DNA of 41,034 bases from a virus. This document shows, in pieces, positions 8,512 through 34,795 of the stretch (positions within the stretch are counted from its first letter, which is position 1; each line of letters starts with the position of its first letter). The notes under the pieces are model-generated. The model worked only from the letters and a program-made list of their open reading frames with translations, had not been told where the DNA came from and did no database searches. The stretch is from the IMG/VR virus record IMGVR_UViG_3300018035_000001, positions 1 to 41,034 of that record. The stretch is one strand, 5' to 3'. Position numbers and translations under genes: made by a program.

Positions 8512-9597
8512 TTAACTGATTCGTTCACCGTAAGTACTTGACACAATAACTCCATAGTCGCCGTTAGTGAAGTTGGTTTTCTTGACCCCAAAAATTCCGC
8601 CTCCGCGAACCATCATAAAGCGGTTGGCATCTTTCATATAAGGAACAAAACTCATTACTGACGACTTCGACTCTCCGGCGCCGCCCCAGGCCCAACAAGC
8701 TGCCTGAGCACCAAGGAGCATGTTGCGGTAGATCCCGCCGTTACCGACTGAGATCATCATGGGAATCCTCTCCGATTTGGAAACCAGAAGGCCGTTGTAC
8801 TCCAGTTCCACGTTGGGCATCTGAAGTTTGTTCGCACTACGAAGTAAGTCGCCCCACTGACCTACGTTGGTGTTCTCCCGAAGCTGGTCGAACACAAAGG
8901 TGTGGAGGATTACTCTATAGTATCGCCGGCCATTCTTGTTGATTGGACGAAGTTTGAAACACCCAGCCCGCGGCATTTCTGCCACCTGCTTCATACGATC
9001 CAAGAAGGTAAGGTCCATTGTTGCGCTGGCGTCCAAGGACGCTTCGCTGGTTGCTACTGACTGACCAGCAATGGTCGTGTCAGATAGGCCAGGAGCCAGG
9101 AAGTGGCTTACGTCAGGATCAGTGATTGACTGCGCAAACGTCTTTCCAGACAGAAGGAAGGTGCTGTTTCCAGCCAGTGTATTTATGACCAAATCACTGA
9201 GCTTGGCTACCCACCATTCTTGCAAGCCATCCTTTCCTTCCTGGAGCAAGTTATATGGAACACGTTGCTCTTCCATTTTACCGCCAGTATCGACTGCCTT
9301 GTTCAACTCTTCGATGGTCATATTGAAGTTGCGGAAGATCAACTTCTCTTCTGTTCCTTCAACAGGGTCATCTCCGACAACGCCGTCTGCGGTGAGCGGG
9401 AGGCGGATTCCGAAGGTAATTGTGTCACCTTCACCCTTGCCGAGTTCAGTCCGGATTTGGACGATACTATCTGACCCCGTTCCAACGAGATCATTGAACT
9501 CCACAGCCGGGAGAATGATGGCAAAGAGTTCTTTTGCCCATTTCTTCCTGGTTAGTGGGTCATTACTAAGAAATTGAGTCTTCGGTGTCATTGCCAT
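8512..9597 (-). CDS. Major capsid protein, N4-gp56 family, 361 aa
   Basis: Recognised by the N-terminal pattern TRKKWAKELF, the DTITFGIRLPL segment, the EELNKAVDTGGKMEEQRVPYNLL region and a C-terminal FVPYMKDANRFMMVRGG stretch, all typical of the N4-gp56 (HK97-fold) capsid family. Length is close to the usual 350-400 aa. The start ATG at 9597 follows AGGAG. It is preceded by the scaffold-like gene and the portal, the normal order of a head module. It assembles the icosahedral shell. Confidence 0.9.
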   Translation of the reverse strand: MAMTPKTQFLSNDPLTRKKWAKELFAIILPAVEFNDLVGTGSDSIVQIRTELGKGEGDTITFGIRLPLTADGVVGDDPVEGTEEKLIFRNFNMTIEELNKAVDTGGKMEEQRVPYNLLQEGKDGLQEWWVAKLSDLVINTLAGNSTFLLSGKTFAQSITDPDVSHFLAPGLSDTTIAGQSVATSEASLDASATMDLTFLDRMKQVAEMPRAGCFKLRPINKNGRRYYRVILHTFVFDQLRENTNVGQWGDLLRSANKLQMPNVELEYNGLLVSKSERIPMMISVGNGGIYRNMLLGAQAACWAWGGAGESKSSVMSFVPYMKDANRFMMVRGGGIFGVKKTNFTNGDYGVIVSSTYGERIS

Positions 9598-10571: not shown

Positions 10572-12638
10572 TTATTTAACTCGTCTTAGTTGTTGTCTCC
10601 CAGATTTCTTCGGATTAGCCATCTTACTCCCTTCTCCCTCCTTTTCTTTCTTGTCAAAATTTTGTGCAGACTTCATTTTTATTGTATTACTCTCATGTTG
10701 AACATGATGAGTTGTTTCAATTTCAAGTTGCTTCAGGGCAAGTTCCTGCCTCTTCAAGTCAATCTCAGCCCACTTAAGTTCTACTTCTGCTTCTGCCTTG
10801 TCCCTCTCAAGCTCAAGCTTTTTAGCATTTTCCTGGGCTTGCTGCATCTTGATTTGCTGTTGCTGTTCCCAGTTTTCTTTTACTCTTTGCTTGACTGAGA
10901 ATGGGACATCAGCGTATTCAAGAAGAATATCAGGAGGGATAGACTCAGGATTATTGTGATTGTACTCTTGTAGTAAGGCTGCAATAGTCATTCTCATTGT
11001 TGCTGTCTCAGCAGTATCCTCAACAGCAAGATCAAACTCCATTGCACTAACGTCGTTGAATCCCTGGAGTTGGCGGTTAAGTTGGGTGTTAACTTTGAGA
11101 AGTTCCATACCCTTCTCGCCTTCGATACGAATGACCTCAGGCATCTGGCAGAATTGCTGAATTAGGCTAAGTAAAAGATGAGTGCCATTGTGTCTACTTT
11201 CATGGAAGTTCGAGTAAAGGATATACAAAACAGCAACGTTGGTTTCATGATGCTGTCTTTGCGTAACACCCGGCTCTCGGGAGCTCGTTTGAATCCCAAG
11301 CAACGCATCCTGAACACCGCCAGTGTTCTTAAGCGCAGCTCCGGCCATGTCATAGAATCGTTCGTAGACAGGGGAGATAGGAGGTTGCTTCTCAAATTTG
11401 TAAGCAGTAATTTGGCCCTTCGCAATCTCCATATGGAAACTAGGATCAGCACTTCTCTCTTCGTATTCCTCGATATTGAGAATAGCTCCTACTTCGTGAG
11501 CAAGGATTCCCTTCGGGAGGGTCTGAAGTAGGTGCTGCAACTGACGCATCATAGTGTTGATAGCTCGCTGAGGATCTTTCATCATAGTGACAGCGCCGAA
11601 CCAGGCATTGCTATCTTCATTCCTGTAGGCGCCGTATTGGATGACTGGGAATGAGGGCCACTTGAGTTGGCTGGGGCCTTGTTCAAAGACATAAGTTCCA
11701 CTGAAGATCATGTAGTGCGGGACTTTCTTCCAGCCAAGTTCCCCTTTGATCCCGTTGGGATCAATCTTGACTAATCCATTCGCAGTAGGTACGCCCCCTT
11801 GTTGATTGAATTTATCCAGTGTCGAAAGGAACTCAGCAAACTGCTCAGGCATAAGATCTTCGACCTTTCCTGACATTGGATTGACAAAGTACATGACTTG
11901 CATGTACTTGTAATACCACCCCTCAACAATTCGATAAAGGTCTCTTGCCTCATTGAAGAACCTTGGTAGATCGTTATAAGCTTCGCCGTATGGATTGCTG
12001 TAACCATAGCTAAATGATTGAAGCTGGTTAATGTCGAAAGAGGGATAGAATCGTTTGAAGTCATCTTCTGACATCCATTTGTCGAGGAAGAAGTAACGAG
12101 CGTCACTCATGTCGTATTCACTGGACATCGGGTCAGGAAAACAATTGTAACCCCTAAGGCGTTTTGCGCAAATCTTTGGTTTGAATGGATTACTTGTGTC
12201 AACATAGAAGTACATATAACTCCGGCCACTTTTTACTGTGTGCTCAAAGCAGTCGAGTTCGAGCCGAGTCTGCTTCATATTCCTGCGATAGTGGGAAAGG
12301 ACCCCAGCCATCAGTTCACTGAAAGGTTCGTCAACCTCACTGACTGGGACTACAGTAGTGTCATTTCGGACTTGTGCAGCCATACCTACGAGGGCATCAA
12401 TCTTGGGCTTGATTTCATTGAACTTGGTATTAGGACGCCTTTGTTCTTCAAGTCTCCTTTTGACCTCGTAGTCATCTTGTTCACCAGCATAAAAACGATA
12501 ATCTTCAGCAGAGGTGTGTCTCCACTCAGTCTCTGGGGTGGAGTTCTCGGCGTCTCGGAGCCAGATTAATGCCCGGCCTACATCACTGTCTGCTCGGAAC
12601 TCTTGTTCAGTAAACGGTAAAGTCTGTGCGATTGGCAA
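10572..12638 (-). CDS. Portal protein, P22-like, 688 aa
   Basis: Forms the dodecameric ring through which DNA enters and leaves the head. Seen: the N-terminal EDYRFYAGEQ motif, RRPNTKFNEIKPKIDALVG, an aromatic-rich middle, GVTQRQHHETNVAVLY near the clip/stem region, and a long Gln/Lys/Glu-rich helix after residue ~590 that would extend as a barrel-like coil as in P22. The length fits P22-type portals (about 700 aa). The start is TTG (12636-12638) with TAGGAG upstream; that ribosome site overlaps the TAG stop of the terminase gene, so the two are coupled. Confidence 0.9.
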   Translation of the reverse strand: MPIAQTLPFTEQEFRADSDVGRALIWLRDAENSTPETEWRHTSAEDYRFYAGEQDDYEVKRRLEEQRRPNTKFNEIKPKIDALVGMAAQVRNDTTVVPVSEVDEPFSELMAGVLSHYRRNMKQTRLELDCFEHTVKSGRSYMYFYVDTSNPFKPKICAKRLRGYNCFPDPMSSEYDMSDARYFFLDKWMSEDDFKRFYPSFDINQLQSFSYGYSNPYGEAYNDLPRFFNEARDLYRIVEGWYYKYMQVMYFVNPMSGKVEDLMPEQFAEFLSTLDKFNQQGGVPTANGLVKIDPNGIKGELGWKKVPHYMIFSGTYVFEQGPSQLKWPSFPVIQYGAYRNEDSNAWFGAVTMMKDPQRAINTMMRQLQHLLQTLPKGILAHEVGAILNIEEYEERSADPSFHMEIAKGQITAYKFEKQPPISPVYERFYDMAGAALKNTGGVQDALLGIQTSSREPGVTQRQHHETNVAVLYILYSNFHESRHNGTHLLLSLIQQFCQMPEVIRIEGEKGMELLKVNTQLNRQLQGFNDVSAMEFDLAVEDTAETATMRMTIAALLQEYNHNNPESIPPDILLEYADVPFSVKQRVKENWEQQQQIKMQQAQENAKKLELERDKAEAEVELKWAEIDLKRQELALKQLEIETTHHVQHESNTIKMKSAQNFDKKEKEGEGSKMANPKKSGRQQLRRVK

Positions 12639-12647
12639 TTCTTACTC

Positions 12648-14177
12648 CTATACAGTCATCCAAGCATGAGGCCCTTGGTTTGAGTCGTAGCCAGGACCGT
12701 AGATTCGACGATCACGCTTTCTTTTTTCAATCTTTGCTAGTTGTTGCTTAACCCTATCTCCCCAGATATTGTAAGCACTAGAACTAAAGTACTCTGACAA
12801 ACAAAGAGCATCAGCAATGTTTGGGGAGTCAACTCCTCGGAGTTTCATTTGCTTTTTGGATTCTACTTTCATAGCACCGTTGTCGTCGAACTCATATGTT
12901 GGCTGACTGAGTTCATTGGCCAGTTCGTGGCCTATGTTGATCTCCATTTTCCCTTTCAAAATGACTTGGTCGGGAAAGGAGTATTGCATTTTCATACATC
13001 TCTCACGAACCAGCCACCAGAGTTCGTCACGAAGTCGATGGTATTTTGTTTTGTCTGAAGAAGCCATACCTACGTTTATGCCAAAGCATAAGCGGTCCAT
13101 CATAGGCTTCCGGCGTACCCAGTCAACGACTCCAGCACCTACTCCGATCTCGTCTATAGCAACACCGTCTGCCATCATTTCAGCAAAACGAGCAACTACT
13201 TGATCGCCGAGAGAGATGGTGTTAAGGCCATAGAACTCATACCACGGGAAGATTTTAAGTCCCTGACGCGGAAGAATAACACTGTTGTCTTCTCCATACC
13301 TTGCAACGTCAACACCGAAGTAGAGTGGTTCTTCTGTTGGAGGTTCTATTTCGTTTCCAACACACTGCATTGCCCAAGCAAGAGGAATAAGGTTAGTTTC
13401 AGCGTCAGAGGGAGGATCTCCCGTGACACGGATTCTGAAGACGTTAGACTCAATACCATACTTTTCAGCCATATAGGAAACATACTCCATACGTTCCAGT
13501 TCCCATAATAACGGCTGTTTAGATATATGCCTAGAATCCCAATGAAGCTTTGTCCATCTTTTCGAAATGCTTGAGTGAAAGTGAGAGTCGTAGAAATATC
13601 CAGTGCTCTTAGTCATATTCCCAATTAGGAGGACTATGTTATCCTCTTGTGTTAATGCCCCCTCGAGGGGGATAAATACAGGGTCTACAACACCACTTGC
13701 CTCGTCAACTACTATTAGGAGGTGATCTCCGTGGAAGCCGGACAAGGTTTCTGACTGCTCTTCCTTACTTGCCCGGGCTGAAGTGCTACGTGCTAAAGCC
13801 CACCAGCGATCCTTTCCTCCATCTGCATTTTTGTTATATAATTTGTCCTTTTGAAGCGCGAACTCAGACGACAAGTTCGACTGTGCAAGCCACTTGGATA
13901 GCTCACTCCAGAGAATATCTGACAACTGATGCCCGGTCGGGGCAGTGCAGACAACCTTTGAATATGGTCTGGTAGTGAGGAACCAAAGTATGATCCACGA
14001 TGCACAGGCATCTTTTCCAGTTCCATGACCACTCCTAACTGAGACTCGCTTACTCTTAGCAATAGAAGTAAGAAGTTCTTTTTGTTGATCACTTGGGTCA
14101 ATCCGAATACAGTCTGAGACAAATTGCAAGGGATCGTGACGCCATTCCCTTAGTTTTTGTTTTATAGCAATGGACAT
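12648..14177 (-). CDS. terL: Terminase large subunit, 509 aa
   Basis: DNA-packaging motor ATPase and nuclease. The Walker A motif is SGHGTGKD at about residues 49-56 and the Walker B motif LLIVVDEA at about 153-160. The C-terminal RNase H-fold nuclease is marked by FGVDVARYGEDNS (Asp near residue 290), AIDEIGVG (about 340-346) and DSPNIADALCLSEY near the end. Length is typical. The portal follows immediately. A palindrome copy lies 17 bp upstream of the ATG at 14177; the ribosome site there (AGGCTG) is weak compared with neighbours. Confidence 0.95.
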   Translation of the reverse strand: MSIAIKQKLREWRHDPLQFVSDCIRIDPSDQQKELLTSIAKSKRVSVRSGHGTGKDACASWIILWFLTTRPYSKVVCTAPTGHQLSDILWSELSKWLAQSNLSSEFALQKDKLYNKNADGGKDRWWALARSTSARASKEEQSETLSGFHGDHLLIVVDEASGVVDPVFIPLEGALTQEDNIVLLIGNMTKSTGYFYDSHFHSSISKRWTKLHWDSRHISKQPLLWELERMEYVSYMAEKYGIESNVFRIRVTGDPPSDAETNLIPLAWAMQCVGNEIEPPTEEPLYFGVDVARYGEDNSVILPRQGLKIFPWYEFYGLNTISLGDQVVARFAEMMADGVAIDEIGVGAGVVDWVRRKPMMDRLCFGINVGMASSDKTKYHRLRDELWWLVRERCMKMQYSFPDQVILKGKMEINIGHELANELSQPTYEFDDNGAMKVESKKQMKLRGVDSPNIADALCLSEYFSSSAYNIWGDRVKQQLAKIEKRKRDRRIYGPGYDSNQGPHAWMTV

Positions 14178-14193
14178 TGTTTTCAGCCTAGAT

Positions 14194-14208
14194 GGTCAAC
14201 GGTTGACC
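14194..14208. repeat. 15-bp palindrome copy 4
   Basis: GGTCAACGGTTGACC between the 62-aa gene and terL. On the minus strand GAGTAGG supplies the TAG stop codon of the 62-aa gene (14208-14210). Confidence 0.95.
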
Positions 14209-14396
14209 TACTCTAATGTTGATAAAATCTTGTCAAGCTTATTAAGAATCTGAACACTATAAGCACGAAGGAGCACACTTACATGTAACCAAGACTCCAT
14301 CTCACGAGACGGTAGTATACCATAGTAAGAATCTTCTACTGCTTTATCTATTTCTTCTTTTGTAAAGTCTATTTCTTCTTTTGTAAAGTCAGTCAC
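14208..14396 (-). CDS. Hypothetical protein with internal 7-residue duplication, 62 aa
   Basis: Begins MTDFTKEEIDFTKEEID, where DFTKEEI is duplicated exactly at the DNA level. The rest is predicted helical (SWLHVSVLLRAYSVQILNKLDKI). Upstream is AAGGAGGGATTATTGTG, giving a ribosome site 10 bases from the ATG. It lies directly before terL. No family is recognised; a small helical terminase-associated protein is possible. Confidence 0.65.
   Translation of the reverse strand: MTDFTKEEIDFTKEEIDKAVEDSYYGILPSREMESWLHVSVLLRAYSVQILNKLDKILSTLE
14347..14388. repeat. Tandem 21-bp duplication
   Basis: Two exact copies of a 21-bp unit (14347-14367 and 14368-14388) inside the start of the 62-aa gene, adding seven residues in frame. 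Perfect identity indicates a recent slippage or duplication event. Confidence 0.9.
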
Positions 14397-14426
14397 AATA
14401 ATCCCTCCTTCTTTTCTTTCTTTAAA

Positions 14427-14440
14427 GGTTGACCAACTCC
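14427..14440. repeat. Degenerate half copy of the 15-bp palindrome
   Basis: GGTTGACCAACTCC matches the right half and flank of the palindrome (GGTTGACCTACTC) with one change, but the left half is lost (AAA instead of GTCAAC). It lies in the 75-bp gap between the 140-aa and 62-aa genes, the type of position where intact copies sit. Confidence 0.6.
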
Positions 14441-14471
14441 TTTTTTCGGATGAGCAAGTTCGCCCTTGACA

Positions 14472-14894
14472 TTAATCACCTTTGCCTACATCAAAGAATA
14501 CGTTACTATACTTATCCAATAACCTGCGATCCATTACCCAAGATGGGGCGTCAGGTGTAGCTAATCGTGATTCTCTTGAAAACGACTCATGATAAGGCGT
14601 TTTCCAATAATCAGTAAAATGTGGTTTCTTATCTATTGGATTTATCCCTGAAACTGCATGAGGATCACCTTCCATCAGTCCTTTATAGAATCCTCTCATG
14701 TCGTAATCTCTATTGTGTTCGGCCCAATATGGTTGCGCAGTATCATAAGGAACTTTATTATGACTAACCCATTGACGAAACTGCTGTTCCGTTCCAGGAG
14801 AAAGTTGAGTAAAGAAATCTTTAACACCTGGCTTAACGTACTTCTTATTTCTCTCATAAAACTCTGATCCACCAGGCATTGCTAAGTTAGGCAT
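14472..14894 (-). CDS. Phage conserved hypothetical protein (DYDMRGF family), 140 aa
   Basis: The pattern DYDMRGFYKGLMEGDPHA, then HFTDYWKTPYHESFSRESRLATPDAPSW, is one I recognise from a widespread but uncharacterised phage protein found near terminase, portal and tail genes. The ATG at 14892-14894 overlaps the TGA of the upstream deiminase gene (TGATG) with GGAG seven bases before; a TTG four codons earlier is less likely. The function is unknown. Confidence 0.75.
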   Translation of the reverse strand: MPNLAMPGGSEFYERNKKYVKPGVKDFFTQLSPGTEQQFRQWVSHNKVPYDTAQPYWAEHNRDYDMRGFYKGLMEGDPHAVSGINPIDKKPHFTDYWKTPYHESFSRESRLATPDAPSWVMDRRLLDKYSNVFFDVGKGD

Positions 14895-15775
14895 CAAAGA
14901 CTCCAAGTCACACAGTTAAGTAGTCCGCCTTCCATTGAGAGGGAACTGCAGTCAATCATGACTATTCTGTGGTTGGGGAAGAAATGCTTTATTGTTAAGA
15001 ATGCCTTTGTGTCCATTTCAAGTTTCATTGCCGGGAGAAGAATGGTTTTCTTTACCTTAAGGAAATTTATATAGTACCCAAAGCCGGGGTTGAAGTCATC
15101 AGCATCAGGGAAACACTTTCGAAACTGTTCTTCAGTTAAATCCCAATCCCACTCATGATAGGCATTATGGAGAAGGTGAACATTTAGTCCTTTTTGGATT
15201 AGGAGTTTGTAAAGCCTATCTTGGTAGACAAGGAATTTCTTATCCCTTTTGGCAGTACCTGCGTAATCATTAATCAGGATGTTCTTATCATCAATAAACT
15301 TGACAATTCCATCTGAGTGACCAAGCTCATCACCTGGTTCCATAGGAACTAAGATTATCTCTGCTTCAAGAATATCTTCAAGTCTTTCAAGAACAGAAAG
15401 GTTGTTGTCTTTTATGACTTTGTCGGTCATTACTACTCTGTCGTTTTGCCTTACTACGTTTCCACCGTCAAGGGTAATTGGGAAATCGCTCCAAGTTTGG
15501 AGCACCTTCCAAGGGCAGTTAGAAATGCTTAACTGCGGAAATCTCGGGTAACCTTTGTAGTTGAACTTTGCCAATCCACTTTTAGTAATCACTGGGAAGT
15601 AGTCCCGAATCCAGATATTACTGGTTCCATGAATGACTTGGACTTTCACCCCAGCCACTTCTAAGTTAATCTTCAAGGGCCAGAATACTTGTGGGTATCT
15701 GTATCCAAGGGTTGCAGTTACGAATACAGTATCCTTAAGATATTCTAACGAGCTGATCGAGTCCCGCTTTGACAT
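14894..15775 (-). CDS. Agmatine deiminase/peptidyl-arginine-deiminase-family enzyme, 293 aa
   Basis: Pentein-fold enzyme that hydrolyses a guanidino group to a ureido group plus ammonia (agmatine to N-carbamoylputrescine, or arginine side chains to citrulline). Using the ATG at 15773-15775, set by AGGAG, the motifs are: WIRDYFPV at about 55-62, LDGGNVV at 102-108, GHSDG at 152-156 (catalytic His) and EGGLLNCVTW near the C-terminus with the catalytic Cys at about 288. All are intact, so it should be active. It overlaps the PSD gene by 41 bp. Family length is usually 330-370 aa, so this is compact. The substrate cannot be read from sequence. Confidence 0.85.
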   Translation of the reverse strand: MSKRDSISSLEYLKDTVFVTATLGYRYPQVFWPLKINLEVAGVKVQVIHGTSNIWIRDYFPVITKSGLAKFNYKGYPRFPQLSISNCPWKVLQTWSDFPITLDGGNVVRQNDRVVMTDKVIKDNNLSVLERLEDILEAEIILVPMEPGDELGHSDGIVKFIDDKNILINDYAGTAKRDKKFLVYQDRLYKLLIQKGLNVHLLHNAYHEWDWDLTEEQFRKCFPDADDFNPGFGYYINFLKVKKTILLPAMKLEMDTKAFLTIKHFFPNHRIVMIDCSSLSMEGGLLNCVTWSL

Positions 15776-16466
15776 GGTAAATCTCCTCATCATCGGGAAT
15801 AAGACTCTTATAACGAGTTCCATTTCGGAAGGGGATTATTAAGTCTACCTGACTTCCAAACCTTACAAGGGAAAAGCGTTCGCCTTGAGTATAGAAAGTA
15901 TTCTGGATGTTAAAGGGGACGATTACATCCACCTCGAAGTCAGCTATTTGGAGGATGTAATAACACTGACGAAGGTATGGAACAAGAATTTCATTCTTCA
16001 TAGCTTCGTTGAAAAAGCTGTACCTCATACAGTCATAGTCTATTTTAGCTGCATCAAGTATGGCTTTTTCAATGGGGCGCATAGATAGGTTTGTCACTTT
16101 CAAGCAAGGAAGTTTCTCATACTTTACGAAGCCATTCGTCGGGACTCTATTAACATGTACGTCGATTACAGTCATGAAGATACCGATTACTAAGCAAGGT
16201 TCTTTGATCTTTTCTCGGAGTAAGGTGTTGACTGTATACTCTCCTCCCTTGACGTTGATAATATCTTCGTCAGGTTTGAAGATTCCGTGGTAAAGTATGA
16301 ATCCGTCAGCTGGGGAGAGCATGATACTCTTGTCAATATAAAGTGGCCGGAACGGGTCCCTATTCATCTCCCGCGACAACTGATCAGAAATAGGCTTATT
16401 AAGTACTTCTTTCGTACACTGAAGTTTGAGGAAGTCAGATAGTTTATCCATCACTAAATATTCCAT
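15735..16466 (-). CDS. psd: Phosphatidylserine decarboxylase (pyruvoyl enzyme), 243 aa
   Basis: Converts phosphatidylserine to phosphatidylethanolamine at the membrane, after self-cleavage that makes a pyruvoyl group. The diagnostic Asp-His-Ser set is present: SPADG at 51-55, DVHVNR at 102-107 and VRFGSQVDL at 201-209, with predicted cleavage between Gly204 and Ser205. The last 38 residues would be the small alpha chain. It lacks a long N-terminal membrane region, like the short bacterial PSD type. The start at 16466 overlaps the 56-aa gene by 23 bp; an ATG five codons later is an alternative. A related decarboxylase with another substrate cannot be excluded. Confidence 0.85.
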   Translation of the reverse strand: MEYLVMDKLSDFLKLQCTKEVLNKPISDQLSREMNRDPFRPLYIDKSIMLSPADGFILYHGIFKPDEDIINVKGGEYTVNTLLREKIKEPCLVIGIFMTVIDVHVNRVPTNGFVKYEKLPCLKVTNLSMRPIEKAILDAAKIDYDCMRYSFFNEAMKNEILVPYLRQCYYILQIADFEVDVIVPFNIQNTFYTQGERFSLVRFGSQVDLIIPFRNGTRYKSLIPDDEEIYHVKAGLDQLVRIS

Positions 16467-16614
16467 CTCTTATTCTATTATATAACTCAAGTTCTGAAGA
16501 ACTGCATCCATCAAGATATGCAGCTGCATTAAGCAAGGACAAGAAATCTCTTATCTCTTCACCTTTTACCTCTATTGTAAAATCGTATTCTTCAAGATCT
16601 TTAATTGTCACCAT
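16444..16614 (-). CDS. Small acidic protein between amidinotransferase and PSD, 56 aa
   Basis: Frame from the ATG at 16612-16614, with TAAGGA (overlapping the upstream stop codon) five bases before, to the TAA at 16444. It begins MVTIKDLEEYDFTIEVKGEE and is acidic and helical. The tight spacing on both sides and the good ribosome site support a real gene. No family is recognised; it could be a partner or regulator of the flanking enzymes. Confidence 0.65.
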   Translation of the reverse strand: MVTIKDLEEYDFTIEVKGEEIRDFLSLLNAAAYLDGCSSSELELYNRIRDGIFSDG

Positions 16615-16621
16615 AGTATCC

Positions 16622-17680
16622 TTAGGCAGGATATGCTATTCTGCTCAAATGTAGGACGCAGCAACTAAGAGCAGCTCCGCTTTTCTCAAGCTCACTCAAG
16701 TTGACCCACACAAGACTGAGGCCTTTGTCACAGCAAATCTTTTCAAGAGTCTCATTCTTGTGAAGTTCAAATCGGTACTCGTCTTCTGATCGCTTCAGTT
16801 CACTAAGAGTAGTAGCGTTATAGATAATGCTCCCGACTCTGACGCAGTTAGTTATCGCTTCCTGACAGTCCTTCTTTGTAACTGGTATTATCTCAGCCAC
16901 ATTCTCAATCTGCTTCCTTTCTCCAGCAGGAATATCATCAGCAAGTAGAACGCACTCACGATTGATAGGGAAAATACTGCAATCAAGATGATAGCGGAGA
17001 GGATCAGTTTCCTGAATGTAAATCCCACGGCAGTCAAACTTCTCTTCCAACCACTTAAAGGCTTTGACATCACTGCGCATTCCGTAGCCAAAGAAGTAGA
17101 TGTTGTCTCGAAGCCATTTGGTTTCAGCTTCTCCCTCCCACTTGTAGGGGCAGAAGTGTTGTTTGAAATCAGTTAGTTTGAGAAAGTAACTAAGAACTCG
17201 TTCTTCGCCCGGCCGGCCTTCAGCTTTGAAATTGCTCAGGATGAATGTCTTTTCAGGAAGATGTGGTAGGTACATTCCTGCATTACTGATATAGACTTCA
17301 TCTTGAAGGTTCGGGTTAGGTGGAAGCAAGTAGGCCATTGCATCCTGAGCTAGAAGGCCGTAGAGAGTGAAGAATTGGGACATTGCCTTGTCAATGTTGA
17401 CTTCTTTTTCCTTCCCTGACATCTTCTTCATCCAGGCATTGTTGGCAATCTCGGTACTGAGATAGCGAGGAGGACAGAGGATGAGTTCGAGGAAGGAGTC
17501 CTGGGTTTTGTTTTTCAGTGTTTTTGGGGCCAGGGAATCTTTCCCTTTCCTTTCCTTGTACGAAGTCAGGACGTTCTTCACTAAATTACTGTCGTTATAC
17601 CTGTTGTCCGGGGCTTTCGAGCGGACCGGGTCAACGGTTGACCTACTGGTTGTTGATTTAGGAGGAAATGCAAGTGCCAT
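16622..17680 (-). CDS. Amidinotransferase/DDAH-like guanidino-modifying enzyme, 352 aa
   Basis: Member of the amidinotransferase (pentein) superfamily that acts on arginine-like guanidino groups. Seen: PPRYLSTEIANNAWM at about 70-84 (N-terminal substrate loop), DEVYISNAGMYLP at 127-139, EGEAE at 182-186 (acidic catalytic residue), YHLDCSIFPI with His231, and GAALSCCVLHLSR with catalytic Cys at 340 or 341. The first ~62 residues are an extra tail not typical of the family, and a palindrome copy lies in frame inside it. The ATG at 17680 follows GAGGTGGGG and directly abuts the stop of the upstream gene. The reaction (hydrolase or transferase) is uncertain. Confidence 0.8.
   Translation of the reverse strand: MALAFPPKSTTSRSTVDPVRSKAPDNRYNDSNLVKNVLTSYKERKGKDSLAPKTLKNKTQDSFLELILCPPRYLSTEIANNAWMKKMSGKEKEVNIDKAMSQFFTLYGLLAQDAMAYLLPPNPNLQDEVYISNAGMYLPHLPEKTFILSNFKAEGRPGEERVLSYFLKLTDFKQHFCPYKWEGEAETKWLRDNIYFFGYGMRSDVKAFKWLEEKFDCRGIYIQETDPLRYHLDCSIFPINRECVLLADDIPAGERKQIENVAEIIPVTKKDCQEAITNCVRVGSIIYNATTLSELKRSEDEYRFELHKNETLEKICCDKGLSLVWVNLSELEKSGAALSCCVLHLSRIAYPA
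17629..17643. repeat. 15-bp palindrome copy 5, inside a coding region
   Basis: GGTCAACGGTTGACC lies in frame in the N-terminal tail of the amidinotransferase-like gene, encoding part of SRSTVDPV. It is the only copy fully inside a confident coding region. Confidence 0.95.
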
Positions 17681-18184
17681 TTAGTAACCCCACCTCTTTC
17701 GCCTGACTAGATCGTTAAGTGCCCCACGAAGGAACGTTTCCATGTACTGTCTTGGGTCTTCTCCAACTCCTGGGGCAACCGTTTTCTCAGGTTCGGCTAA
17801 TCCCTCTTTCCCAACGCCGGTGCCAGTTCGAAGGCGATTGTCTGAAGTTCGTCGGGGAGGTAGGCCACCAAATGGGGGACTTGGTTCATTATCTCTATCA
17901 GCTCCGGTCCCATACCCCGACCGAAGGTCAGCACCTGCTCCAATCAGGGGACGATTACCAGACTCAACGGGATGATTGCCAGACTGGTTAATCGACTCAT
18001 TAGGTTCTGCATAATACCCCTGCCTTCCCTCCCACGGCCTGGACATTGCATTATCCCGAGTCTTCCTTCCCTCCTTCATCTTGTCAAAGACAAAGTCTAG
18101 GAAACTCCCTTGTGCATTGGGCATCCCTTTATCTCCTTCAAGAAGACCTTTTGTTCTCCGCATCTCTAAAGGCATTACTGCCAT
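17681..18184 (-). CDS. Hypothetical low-complexity protein, 167 aa
   Basis: Rich in Gly, Arg, Pro and Asp with few hydrophobics in the middle (about 40-135), so probably largely disordered; the C-terminal ~30 residues (YMETFLRGALNDLVRRKRWGY) look like an amphipathic basic helix. The start ATG at 18184 follows GAGGACAACGCA. It sits between the membrane-protein cassette and the enzyme island. No family is recognised. Confidence 0.65.
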   Translation of the reverse strand: MAVMPLEMRRTKGLLEGDKGMPNAQGSFLDFVFDKMKEGRKTRDNAMSRPWEGRQGYYAEPNESINQSGNHPVESGNRPLIGAGADLRSGYGTGADRDNEPSPPFGGLPPRRTSDNRLRTGTGVGKEGLAEPEKTVAPGVGEDPRQYMETFLRGALNDLVRRKRWGY

Positions 18185-18220
18185 TGCGTTGTCCTCAGTC
18201 CCCGCCTTAGGCGGTGCTTA

Positions 18221-19269: not shown

Positions 19270-20001
19270 TTACCCTATGTCCGTAAGAGGCAGGGTTGCC
19301 GGCATCATCTGAGTGGTTGGATTCCTGACCCATGCTTCTCCGCAGATTGCAAGCAGGGAAGGTACATCAATTATGCCTACTGATTCCCAGGTGAATATGG
19401 CATATGCAGGCTGGGTTCCGTCAACATCGTCGGGGATTGCTTCACCAAGTTGCTCTGCCAACCAGGAAATTGGGCCATACCCACAGAGGGAAACGCAATG
19501 GTCTTCGTCGTAGTCTTGCTTATATCCAATGGCAAACCAGCCACTGACACCTTCGCCTACTGATTTGCAGGTGATTTCAAGTTGGCTGGCAGCGACTCCA
19601 ATTTTTACAGGTCCGAGGGTAATGGCGCTTTGTAGGATGGCAGCGTTTGTCCAGTCAATAGATTGGTAAGGGCCGTCGTCCCATTTACTTCCACCCTGTT
19701 CGAAGCCGCCTGTCTGCATCTTGTCCAGGACGTTCTGAAGGTTAGCCCCGTTGAGAAAGCCGTTGGCCTTGGCCCAAGAAGTAACGATATCGTCAGTGAT
19801 GAGGACTCCACCGCCCGGGGTTCTACAGGACTTCGCAAATGCTTCCTCTGCCGTTACGCAGTCGCCGTAGTCTGCATTACCCCACATGGAAAGCTGGGTA
19901 ATCGGCCACAGGAATTGGGTTGGGGCAGCAACTGCTTTGAACGGCGTTGCCCCTGCAAGTTTGTGTCGGGGAGTTGATATTGCACCTCTCATAAAAGACA
20001 T
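19270..20001 (-). CDS. Papain-like cysteine peptidase-fold protein, 243 aa
   Basis: Seen: NADYGDCVTAEEAFAK with the putative nucleophile Cys48 in the helix-start position of papain-like enzymes, DEDHCVSLCGYG with the putative catalytic His168, and a following FTWESVGIID segment where papain-type enzymes carry the third polar residue. C1/C39-type peptidases or amidases of phage share this order. No signal peptide is visible. Its place between a lipoprotein and a coiled-coil membrane protein suggests wall or protein cleavage at lysis. The ATG at 20001 follows GAGGAGG. Confidence 0.65.
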   Translation of the reverse strand: MSFMRGAISTPRHKLAGATPFKAVAAPTQFLWPITQLSMWGNADYGDCVTAEEAFAKSCRTPGGGVLITDDIVTSWAKANGFLNGANLQNVLDKMQTGGFEQGGSKWDDGPYQSIDWTNAAILQSAITLGPVKIGVAASQLEITCKSVGEGVSGWFAIGYKQDYDEDHCVSLCGYGPISWLAEQLGEAIPDDVDGTQPAYAIFTWESVGIIDVPSLLAICGEAWVRNPTTQMMPATLPLTDIG

Positions 20002-33496: not shown

Positions 33497-34795
33497 ATGG
33501 AAATTTTCTACTGCTCACCAAGTACCATTAAGATCAAAGAGGGCTTCGAACGCTTTCGCAAAGACATAGGAGATGTAAAACCTCTTGCTGAATCAATCCA
33601 ACGCACAAGGCAAATAATGCCAGTCATAGTCACCCGCGACATGTACTTAATTGACGGCGGCAGACGCCTTGCTGCCTGCATGATGCTTAACAAAGAAGTT
33701 AAGTGTGTCTTCGAAGACGTAGTTGATGATGCCGAGATGCGTGAATTGGAGATAGAGGCTAATTGCCACCGTAAAGACTTCACTCCTGCCGAAAAGGCCT
33801 TCGCAATCAAAGAATTCCACCGTCTCCGGCAGATCCGCTACGGTAAGTCTCACATTGGAACTTCTGGAGGCCATACCCTTACTGACACCGCCAACGATCT
33901 CAATATGTCCAAAGGAGCAGTCATTCGGGAGATGCAAATCGCAGCTATCGTCGAAATGTTCCCAGACCTCGCATCTGCCAAAAAGCCTGGAGATATACTT
34001 AAAGCTGCAAAGGGGATGCAGCGAATAACCGAAGCCATTATTGGGGCCAGAGCCCACGAGGAGGCAGCAAAAAAGAATGAAACTACTTACAAACTCATTC
34101 TCGAAGATGCTAACACTTACCTCCCAAGCATACCAGACAGTAGTATCCAAATTCTCCTTACTGATCCTCTCTACGGCATTGATGCTGATAAGAATACTAT
34201 ACAAATTGGAGGGGAAACGGGGGGAAGTCTCACGACTTCGGGATTTAAGATCGAAGATCGAAAGGAAGATGCTTTCTTCCTGTATAAACTCCTGGCTCGG
34301 GAGTCTGGAAGATTCTGCACAGATGATGCACATGGATATATCTTTGTTGGACCAGAGCATTTCCACACCGTCAGTAACTTCTTCAGAGAACACAACTGGC
34401 AAGTCCACATCCGTCCACTGATATGGATCAAACGGGAGTCAGGACAAAATAACTCTCCCCACGCTTGGCCATCTTCCTGCTACGAAATGGTCCTCTATAT
34501 GCGCCGAGAAAACTCCAAACTTGTCCGGCAGGGGCAGCCAGACTGGTTTGAGTGCCCTCCAGTAAGCTCTGCAAACAAGACCCATGTATACGAAAAGCCT
34601 GTTGCTGTTCTCGAAAACTTGCTTTCCAGGGTCTCTTTGCCCGGCCAAATAATGCTTGATCCTTTCATGGGATCAGGTTCCTCAATAGAGGCAGCAGTAA
34701 AAATGAAGCTATTCGCTACTGGAGTAGACATTAGCCAAGAAGCATATCTCTTAGCTCAATCCCGTATGGCTAATCTTAAAACAACTAACGAGTAG
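33497..34795 (+). CDS. ParB-domain/HTH-DNA methyltransferase fusion, 432 aa
   Basis: Residues about 1-110 are a ParB/sulfiredoxin domain (PLAESIQRTRQIMPVIV, LIDGGRRLAACM, then ANCHRKDFTPAEKAFAI). An HTH follows (LTDTANDLNMSKGAVIREMQ). Residues ~195-432 are a DNA methyltransferase: catalytic motif TDPLYGI at 222-228 comes before the AdoMet motif LDPFMGSGSS near 387-396, the beta-class order for N6-adenine or N4-cytosine enzymes. The usual PPY is PLY here. Phages use such enzymes against restriction or for regulation. ATG at 33497; its TAG is shared with palindrome copy 13. Confidence 0.85.
   Translation: MEIFYCSPSTIKIKEGFERFRKDIGDVKPLAESIQRTRQIMPVIVTRDMYLIDGGRRLAACMMLNKEVKCVFEDVVDDAEMRELEIEANCHRKDFTPAEKAFAIKEFHRLRQIRYGKSHIGTSGGHTLTDTANDLNMSKGAVIREMQIAAIVEMFPDLASAKKPGDILKAAKGMQRITEAIIGARAHEEAAKKNETTYKLILEDANTYLPSIPDSSIQILLTDPLYGIDADKNTIQIGGETGGSLTTSGFKIEDRKEDAFFLYKLLARESGRFCTDDAHGYIFVGPEHFHTVSNFFREHNWQVHIRPLIWIKRESGQNNSPHAWPSSCYEMVLYMRRENSKLVRQGQPDWFECPPVSSANKTHVYEKPVAVLENLLSRVSLPGQIMLDPFMGSGSSIEAAVKMKLFATGVDISQEAYLLAQSRMANLKTTNE

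Follow-up and report, generated by a model that had tools for sequence, protein, structure and literature searches.

The window analyzed here is a viral DNA stretch of 41,034 nucleotides (IMG/VR record IMGVR_UViG_3300018035_000001, positions 1 to 41,034), in which a minus-strand gene island at 14894-17680 encodes an arginine-dihydrolase/DDAH-like pentein (ADT), a 56-aa open reading frame (ORF), a phosphatidylserine-decarboxylase homolog (PSD), and an agmatine-deiminase-like pentein (PAD), in this order, followed by a 144-aa ORF. The ADT-PSD module is widespread: hundreds of phages that are not related to one another have it, as do some bacteria. The evidence leans toward the island being a soluble module of the late arm that would convert L-arginine to ornithine and then putrescine, with PAD handling agmatine, each substrate being predicted. 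More tentatively, the PSD fold may have given rise to a clade of soluble pyruvoyl amino-acid decarboxylases locked to a dihydrolase partner. Hundreds of phages would then share a previously unnoticed pathway from arginine to an amine, and bacteria of several phyla, by adding an exporter, would have a minimal operon for making and secreting that amine. A preliminary description of the window knew of no described phage system with this gene set. The single genes are already named in Campylobacter phage records, and what is new is their linkage and functional reassignment.

Recurrence of the pair in phages

Queries of IMG/VR with ADT, PSD, and PAD returned large sets of relatives, those of ADT being the best 80 of 253. 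Because loci fetched through PSD would bias the count, linkage was counted on the first set, which was fetched through ADT only. PSD lay inside the fetched stretch in 51 of these 58 loci, and the remaining seven comprised six Campylobacter phages whose PSD lies in another part of the genome and a single contig cut at ADT. Of 107 distinct phage ADT genes, 98 had a same-strand PSD gene no more than 1.6 kb away, and 65 pairs had a 1-nt overlap. ADT and PSD distances were correlated (r 0.96, a value inflated by near-copies), while 1000 shuffles gave at most 0.22. The gene set is not a chance assembly, given that close relatives of both penteins and of PSD exist elsewhere and that ADT is repeatedly found with PSD; the island had been proposed as a functional unit joining two penteins to a decarboxylase, a proposal that this search of other phages bears out.

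The pair is found just after the major capsid gene gp23 in T4-like phages and also in podovirus-like phages. Among the loci with room, gp23 was within 1.5 kb upstream of ADT in 62 of 93, and PhoH often follows. In the window phage and its podovirus-like relatives, the pair is accompanied by PAD in the packaging/structural arm. A role in DNA hypermodification was considered and set aside, as no base-modification gene was recognized in linkage with the pair.

Among annotated phage proteins, ADT and PSD were each matched in 39 Campylobacter phage records (Fletchervirus in those with taxonomy read) and in 6 from Bacteroides phages, and a single Xanthomonas phage matched ADT only. In this collection, PAD was matched only in these 6 Bacteroides phages and in one record without annotation. 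Campylobacter phage NCTC12673 carries homologs of both ADT (gp044, 32%) and PSD (gp085, 38%) in one genome under the database names 'aminidotransferase' and 'phosphatidylserine decarboxylase'; unlike in the window, its two genes are apart and PAD was not found in its genome. The transcriptome and mutant papers on NCTC12673 make no mention of these genes, and a survey of marine auxiliary genes treats pssA/psd and creatine genes, not the ADT-PSD pair.

Three further loci have unusual features. The longest-branch pair (L083, 9998-11610) is in a virus record of 120.7 kb that has many small ORFs rich in Cys, and the PSD of this pair has GSH in place of GSQ at the cleavage site. In two small phages (L099, 986-8632, and L029, 2258-8050), the module is right behind a very large gene (1930-2548 aa).

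ADT resembles arginine dihydrolases

Judged by sequence and modeled fold, ADT falls closest to arginine dihydrolase (ArgZ/AgrE) and DDAH rather than to amidinotransferases. ArgZ/AgrE ranks first and DDAH next in both the sequence profile and the fold comparison, and the best PDB match of the AlphaFold2 (AF2) model (pLDDT 87, with low confidence for the first 60 aa) was ArgZ 6jv1, with a TM of 0.89 on target. An identity as an amidinotransferase (GATM, StrB1, SxtG, HsvA) was considered and rejected, because only DDAH and dihydrolase models match and ArgZ and DDAH outrank the amidinotransferase folds. Of the earlier label 'amidinotransferase/DDAH-like', then, the second half stands, in agreement with the Pfam match, while the first half is dropped.

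The catalytic residues N133, E182, H231, and C340 are intact and conserved. In alignment to the AgrE chain, ADT residues N81, D127, N133, R156, E159, E182, R202, and H231 are opposite N22, D65, N71, R90, E93, E118, R139, and H168, respectively, with C340 in place of C264 (a position assigned from conservation and the fold match). The equivalents of all nine ArgZ residues are invariant in 38 sequences. PDB titles name active-site mutants of ArgZ/AgrE, namely N71S, with a trapped intermediate, and C264S/C264A, and we take R90, R139, and N22 of ArgZ to have roles in holding arginine. Because the carboxylate-binding arginines are conserved, ADT probably acts on arginine ahead of decarboxylation. 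Compared with the ArgZ/AgrE domain (Synechocystis Sll1336, Anabaena Alr4995), ADT shares the pentein fold and every position compared for catalysis or arginine binding, N71 among them, whereas it has only ~22% identity, lacks the ornithine cyclodeaminase domain, and scores far below the curated cut-off discussed below.

PSD retains its fold but has lost features of a lipid enzyme

The PSD gene, listed in databases as a membrane-lipid enzyme, has almost certainly been repurposed for a probable arginine-to-amine route, as read from its residues and neighbors. The PF02666 fold is present (AF2 model, pLDDT 91), and the processing residues D54 and H104 and the cleavage site G204/S205 are invariant; a pyruvoyl cofactor is therefore still expected. 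For comparison, we set 75 ADT-linked proteins (pair-type) against 31 other class-II PSDs (lipid-type), using window residue numbering. A tree of the 106 proteins, built by a quick method, splits the two groups with an SH-aLRT of 100. A hydrophobic segment resembling a membrane helix was present within the first 70 residues of all 31 lipid-type proteins and of none of the 75 pair-type proteins. The lipid-type proteins also have an arginine pair (R180 in 31/31 and R181 in 28/31) that is lost in the pair-type, mainly to D/N and small residues, with position 180 being D or N in 70 of 75. Other pair-type changes include G176 to D (74/75), R206 beside the cleavage site to Q, and an extra segment at 126-144 in which M129 and E133 are invariant. 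Positive charge has thus been lost and negative charge gained, and a cationic amino acid would fit better than a phospholipid head group; the most likely substrate, as predicted from these residues, is L-ornithine.

Gene neighborhoods show the same division. The CDP-alcohol phosphatidyltransferase family (pssA) adjoins 22 of the 31 lipid-type PSD genes (19 by motif), while no pssA neighbor was found at 34 bacterial pair-type loci or, by motif, at 83 phage loci. Moreover, eight of nine bacterial genomes carrying the pair encode a second PSD that is a better match to the family. Our PSD thus shares with class-II phosphatidylserine/archaetidylserine decarboxylases (PF02666, TIGR00164) the fold, G-S self-cleavage, and the PADG and DVHxNR motifs, but differs in lacking the membrane helix and the arginine pair, in carrying the 126-144 segment, and in being linked to ADT instead of pssA. 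Among the papers searched, none described PSD homologs acting as amino-acid decarboxylases or found in natural-product clusters.

PAD is an occasional third member

In PAD, the catalytic positions D74, D119, H169, D171, and C304 are invariant in 8 phage proteins, and profile matches include the agmatine deiminases 2ewo (2.6e-18) and 2jer (4e-16). Its score of 32 bits against the curated agmatine deiminase model (TIGR03380) does not reach the cut-off of 382. PAD shares the W-x-R-D, [DE]-G-G, G-H-x-D, and C catalytic positions of agmatine deiminase (AguA; TIGR03380, PF04371), differing in being shorter and lacking the His before the catalytic Cys. Within the trio, PAD may come before, between, or after ADT and PSD. 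It is present in 40-60 kb phages and in Bacteroides phage, and eight records of 100-172 kb, NCTC12673 included, yielded no PAD. One 21.8 kb record (L244, 7032-8849) has a divergent ADT followed directly by PAD, with PSD not found, and may represent a PSD-free variant or a fragment.

Bacterial pairs are coupled to exporters

Genome contigs scanned with the PSD alignment yielded 65 loci in two sets. In the pair-type set (n=34; 38-48% identity), which includes Xenorhabdus, Photorhabdus, Saccharothrix, Amycolatopsis, Streptomyces, Thermoleophilaceae, Verrucomicrobia, and others, ADT was adjacent in 33; in the lipid-type set (n=31; ~23-34% identity), it was adjacent in none. An exporter (MATE transporter in 15, ABC exporter in 13) was found within 2.5 kb of the bacterial pair in 28 of 29 loci with room, the MATE call being above the NCBIfam cut-off and the other exporters best matching ABC exporters. 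Of the five pairs without an exporter, four are on contigs that end at or within ~0.6 kb of ADT. Exporters were absent from all 31 lipid-type loci and all 84 phage loci, and no further tailoring enzyme was common to the neighborhoods of the pair. A product in need of an exporter would most likely be a small molecule. As for other putrescine genes, the bacteria carrying the pair present a mixed picture, and Xenorhabdus also has pyridoxal-phosphate (PLP)-dependent decarboxylase genes of the ornithine and arginine decarboxylase (ODC/ADC) families. In Photorhabdus tasmaniensis (L132, 610-2438), the frame of a pair-type PSD is split by a 345-aa opposite-strand ORF resembling an inserted element, with the ADT and ABC exporter frames still open.

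Proposed pathway and alternatives

We propose that ADT, as an ArgZ-type pentein cysteine hydrolase, would hydrolyze the guanidino group of L-arginine, yielding L-ornithine, CO2, and ammonia, a step for which the residue evidence argues well. The PSD proenzyme would then cut itself between G204 and S205 to form its pyruvoyl cofactor and decarboxylate the ADT product, most likely ornithine, to putrescine. In PAD-bearing phages, agmatine from the host pool or from a side activity of PSD might, more speculatively, be converted to N-carbamoylputrescine. The outcome would be raised putrescine late in infection, probably serving as a counter-ion for packaged DNA and in translation. In bacteria, the coupling of two enzymes to a MATE or ABC exporter suggests that the product is probably secreted.

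The position of the module beside capsid genes suggests its late expression, and its placement beside gp23 or the terminase and portal genes fits a late supply of polyamines for DNA packaging, which is plausible. Polyamines can be packaged in phage virions, and T4 needs them for growth (PMC7226272); in Nitrosomonas infected by phage Nir1, putrescine rose late (PMC13356812). Phages and viruses are known to encode arginase together with pyruvoyl or PLP ornithine decarboxylases of measured activity, with AdoMetDC-derived enzymes named as the third fold for ornithine decarboxylation (PMC9992855). By analogy, the ADT-PSD module would be a non-homologous equivalent of the phage arginase and ODC route. 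As in those systems, arginine would be turned into putrescine or agmatine by phage-encoded enzymes, among them a pyruvoyl decarboxylase taken over from a different role, although the pyruvoyl enzymes of Li et al. 2023 are of the AdoMetDC fold, unlike the PSD fold here, and the main text of that paper makes no mention of phosphatidylserine decarboxylase, dihydrolase, or Campylobacter phages (PMC9992855).

Several observations weigh against an arginine-to-putrescine route. ADT matches the NCBIfam arginine dihydrolase model (NF052232) at 9.1e-21, but its 74 bits are far short of the 450-bit cut-off, and we therefore describe it as working like a dihydrolase without filing it as a member. The predicted substrate of PSD depends on residue swaps, with which citrulline, arginine, or some other amino acid would be compatible as well. 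It is hard to see where PAD would act in a route of two steps through ornithine, and no N-carbamoylputrescine hydrolase was recognized among the window proteins scanned. Finally, the ODC/ADC-family genes of Xenorhabdus would make a dedicated putrescine export operon redundant there. The oddity of putrescine export in this setting leaves room for a less common amine, and of all parts of the system, the exporter in bacteria is explained least well.

One alternative is that PSD converts arginine to agmatine and PAD then yields N-carbamoylputrescine, or that ADT releases citrulline for PSD to decarboxylate to N-carbamoylputrescine; either would still be polyamine metabolism through other intermediates, and we consider this possible though unlikely. 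It would account for PAD, which is nearest to agmatine deiminases and part of a trio in varying order, and has precedent in phage pyruvoyl arginine decarboxylases and in PBCV-1, which encodes ADC and agmatine deiminase (PMC9992855). However, ADT and PSD occur without PAD in large phages and bacteria, and retention in ADT of the two expected carboxylate-holding arginines and the dihydrolase asparagine is a better fit to the conversion of arginine to ornithine. A dedicated secreted bioactive or signal amine, exported by bacteria and, in phages, released through lysis or used on the host or competitors, would explain the exporter beside nearly every bacterial pair and the patchy spread in Xenorhabdus (with its existing decarboxylases), Photorhabdus, and actinobacteria. 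This seems quite improbable to us, as two steps from arginine would yield known amines only, barring an unusual substrate of ADT or PSD, and pair neighborhoods have no tailoring enzyme in common.

The preliminary description had also raised a change in host membrane lipids, for which the Pfam match, the intact processing site, and the GenBank names of PSD would speak. A true phosphatidylserine decarboxylase is nevertheless very hard to reconcile with a separate clade lacking the membrane helix, the arginine pair, and any pssA link, and constantly tied to an arginine enzyme, with a separate lipid PSD in most of the bacterial genomes. Hardly any weight can be given to the modification of arginine residues in virion or host proteins, whether by citrullination or conversion to ornithine. 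Membership of PAD in the Porphyromonas-type peptidyl-arginine deiminase Pfam family and the proximity of ADT to capsid genes are compatible with it, yet the nearest solved relatives are small-molecule enzymes, ADT retains positions for binding free arginine, and PSD and the bacterial exporters would be left without a role; no evidence for citrullination, another earlier suggestion, was found. Among the purposes put forward earlier, a change in polyamine pools, as in the predicted arginine-to-putrescine route, is the best fit.

Gene layout of the window

All four ORFs of the island, their visible catalytic residues, and their location in the packaging/structural arm agree with the preliminary description. 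The genes are tightly packed or overlapping, and the terminase, portal, and major head genes are further along, past the 144-aa ORF (Table 1). The start of PAD is uncertain (ATG at 15823, 15793, or 15775), each candidate overlapping the end of PSD. The 56-aa ORF is not conserved, its sole match in the first 100 loci being the window itself, and the 144-aa ORF has matches in only 2 of these loci. Purifying selection on the island genes is strong (dN/dS 0.01-0.09 in measurable comparisons). An unsaturated comparison of the relatives L010 and L013 gave 0.023 for ADT and 0.010 for PSD; between the window and L006, values were 0.037 for PSD and 0.048 for terminase, with dS near saturation. Positions 14000-18200 have no DNA-level relatives among phage records.

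Elsewhere in the window, a ParB-like domain is apparently fused to a DNA methyltransferase (33497-34795), and a 243-aa ORF (19270-20001) without a Pfam match has by eye the look of a papain-like cysteine protease (GDC...HCV motifs).

Table 1. Coordinates of the island genes and their structural context in the window.
Feature	Position	Strand	Match or remark
ADT, ArgZ/DDAH-like pentein, predicted L-arginine dihydrolase, 352 aa	16622..17680	-	Pfam DDAH_eukar, E 6.6e-10
56-aa ORF between ADT and PSD	16444..16614	-	Overlaps PSD start; no Pfam match
PSD, PSD-fold pyruvoyl-type decarboxylase of the ADT-linked clade, 243 aa; predicted cationic amino acid substrate	15735..16466	-	PF02666 PS_Dcarbxylase, 5.3e-21
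PAD, agmatine-deiminase-like pentein, 309 aa from first ATG	14894..15823	-	PF04371 PAD_porph, 5.8e-18
144-aa ORF, TTG start, function not assigned	14472..14906	-	Overlaps PAD end; no Pfam match
Terminase large subunit (context)	12648..14177	-	PHROG 2, 2.7e-37
Portal protein (context)	10572..12638	-	PHROG 156, 2.5e-83
Major head protein (context)	8512..9597	-	PHROG 334, 4.1e-57

Implications

These results uncover a gene pair of T4-like, podovirus-like, Bacteroides, and Campylobacter phages that has been hidden behind two misleading names, and viral 'psd' annotations in auxiliary-gene surveys may accordingly not signal lipid metabolism. If the proposed route is true, another protein fold would be added to those serving amino-acid decarboxylation, and phages would gain a self-contained arginine-to-diamine route encoded next to capsid genes. 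It would also offer an origin for virion polyamines, an old question that could be tested by a two-gene deletion. In bacteria, the same genes point to an uncharacterized PSD-ADT-exporter operon, and the amine that is exported or packed into virions may be new to these organisms.

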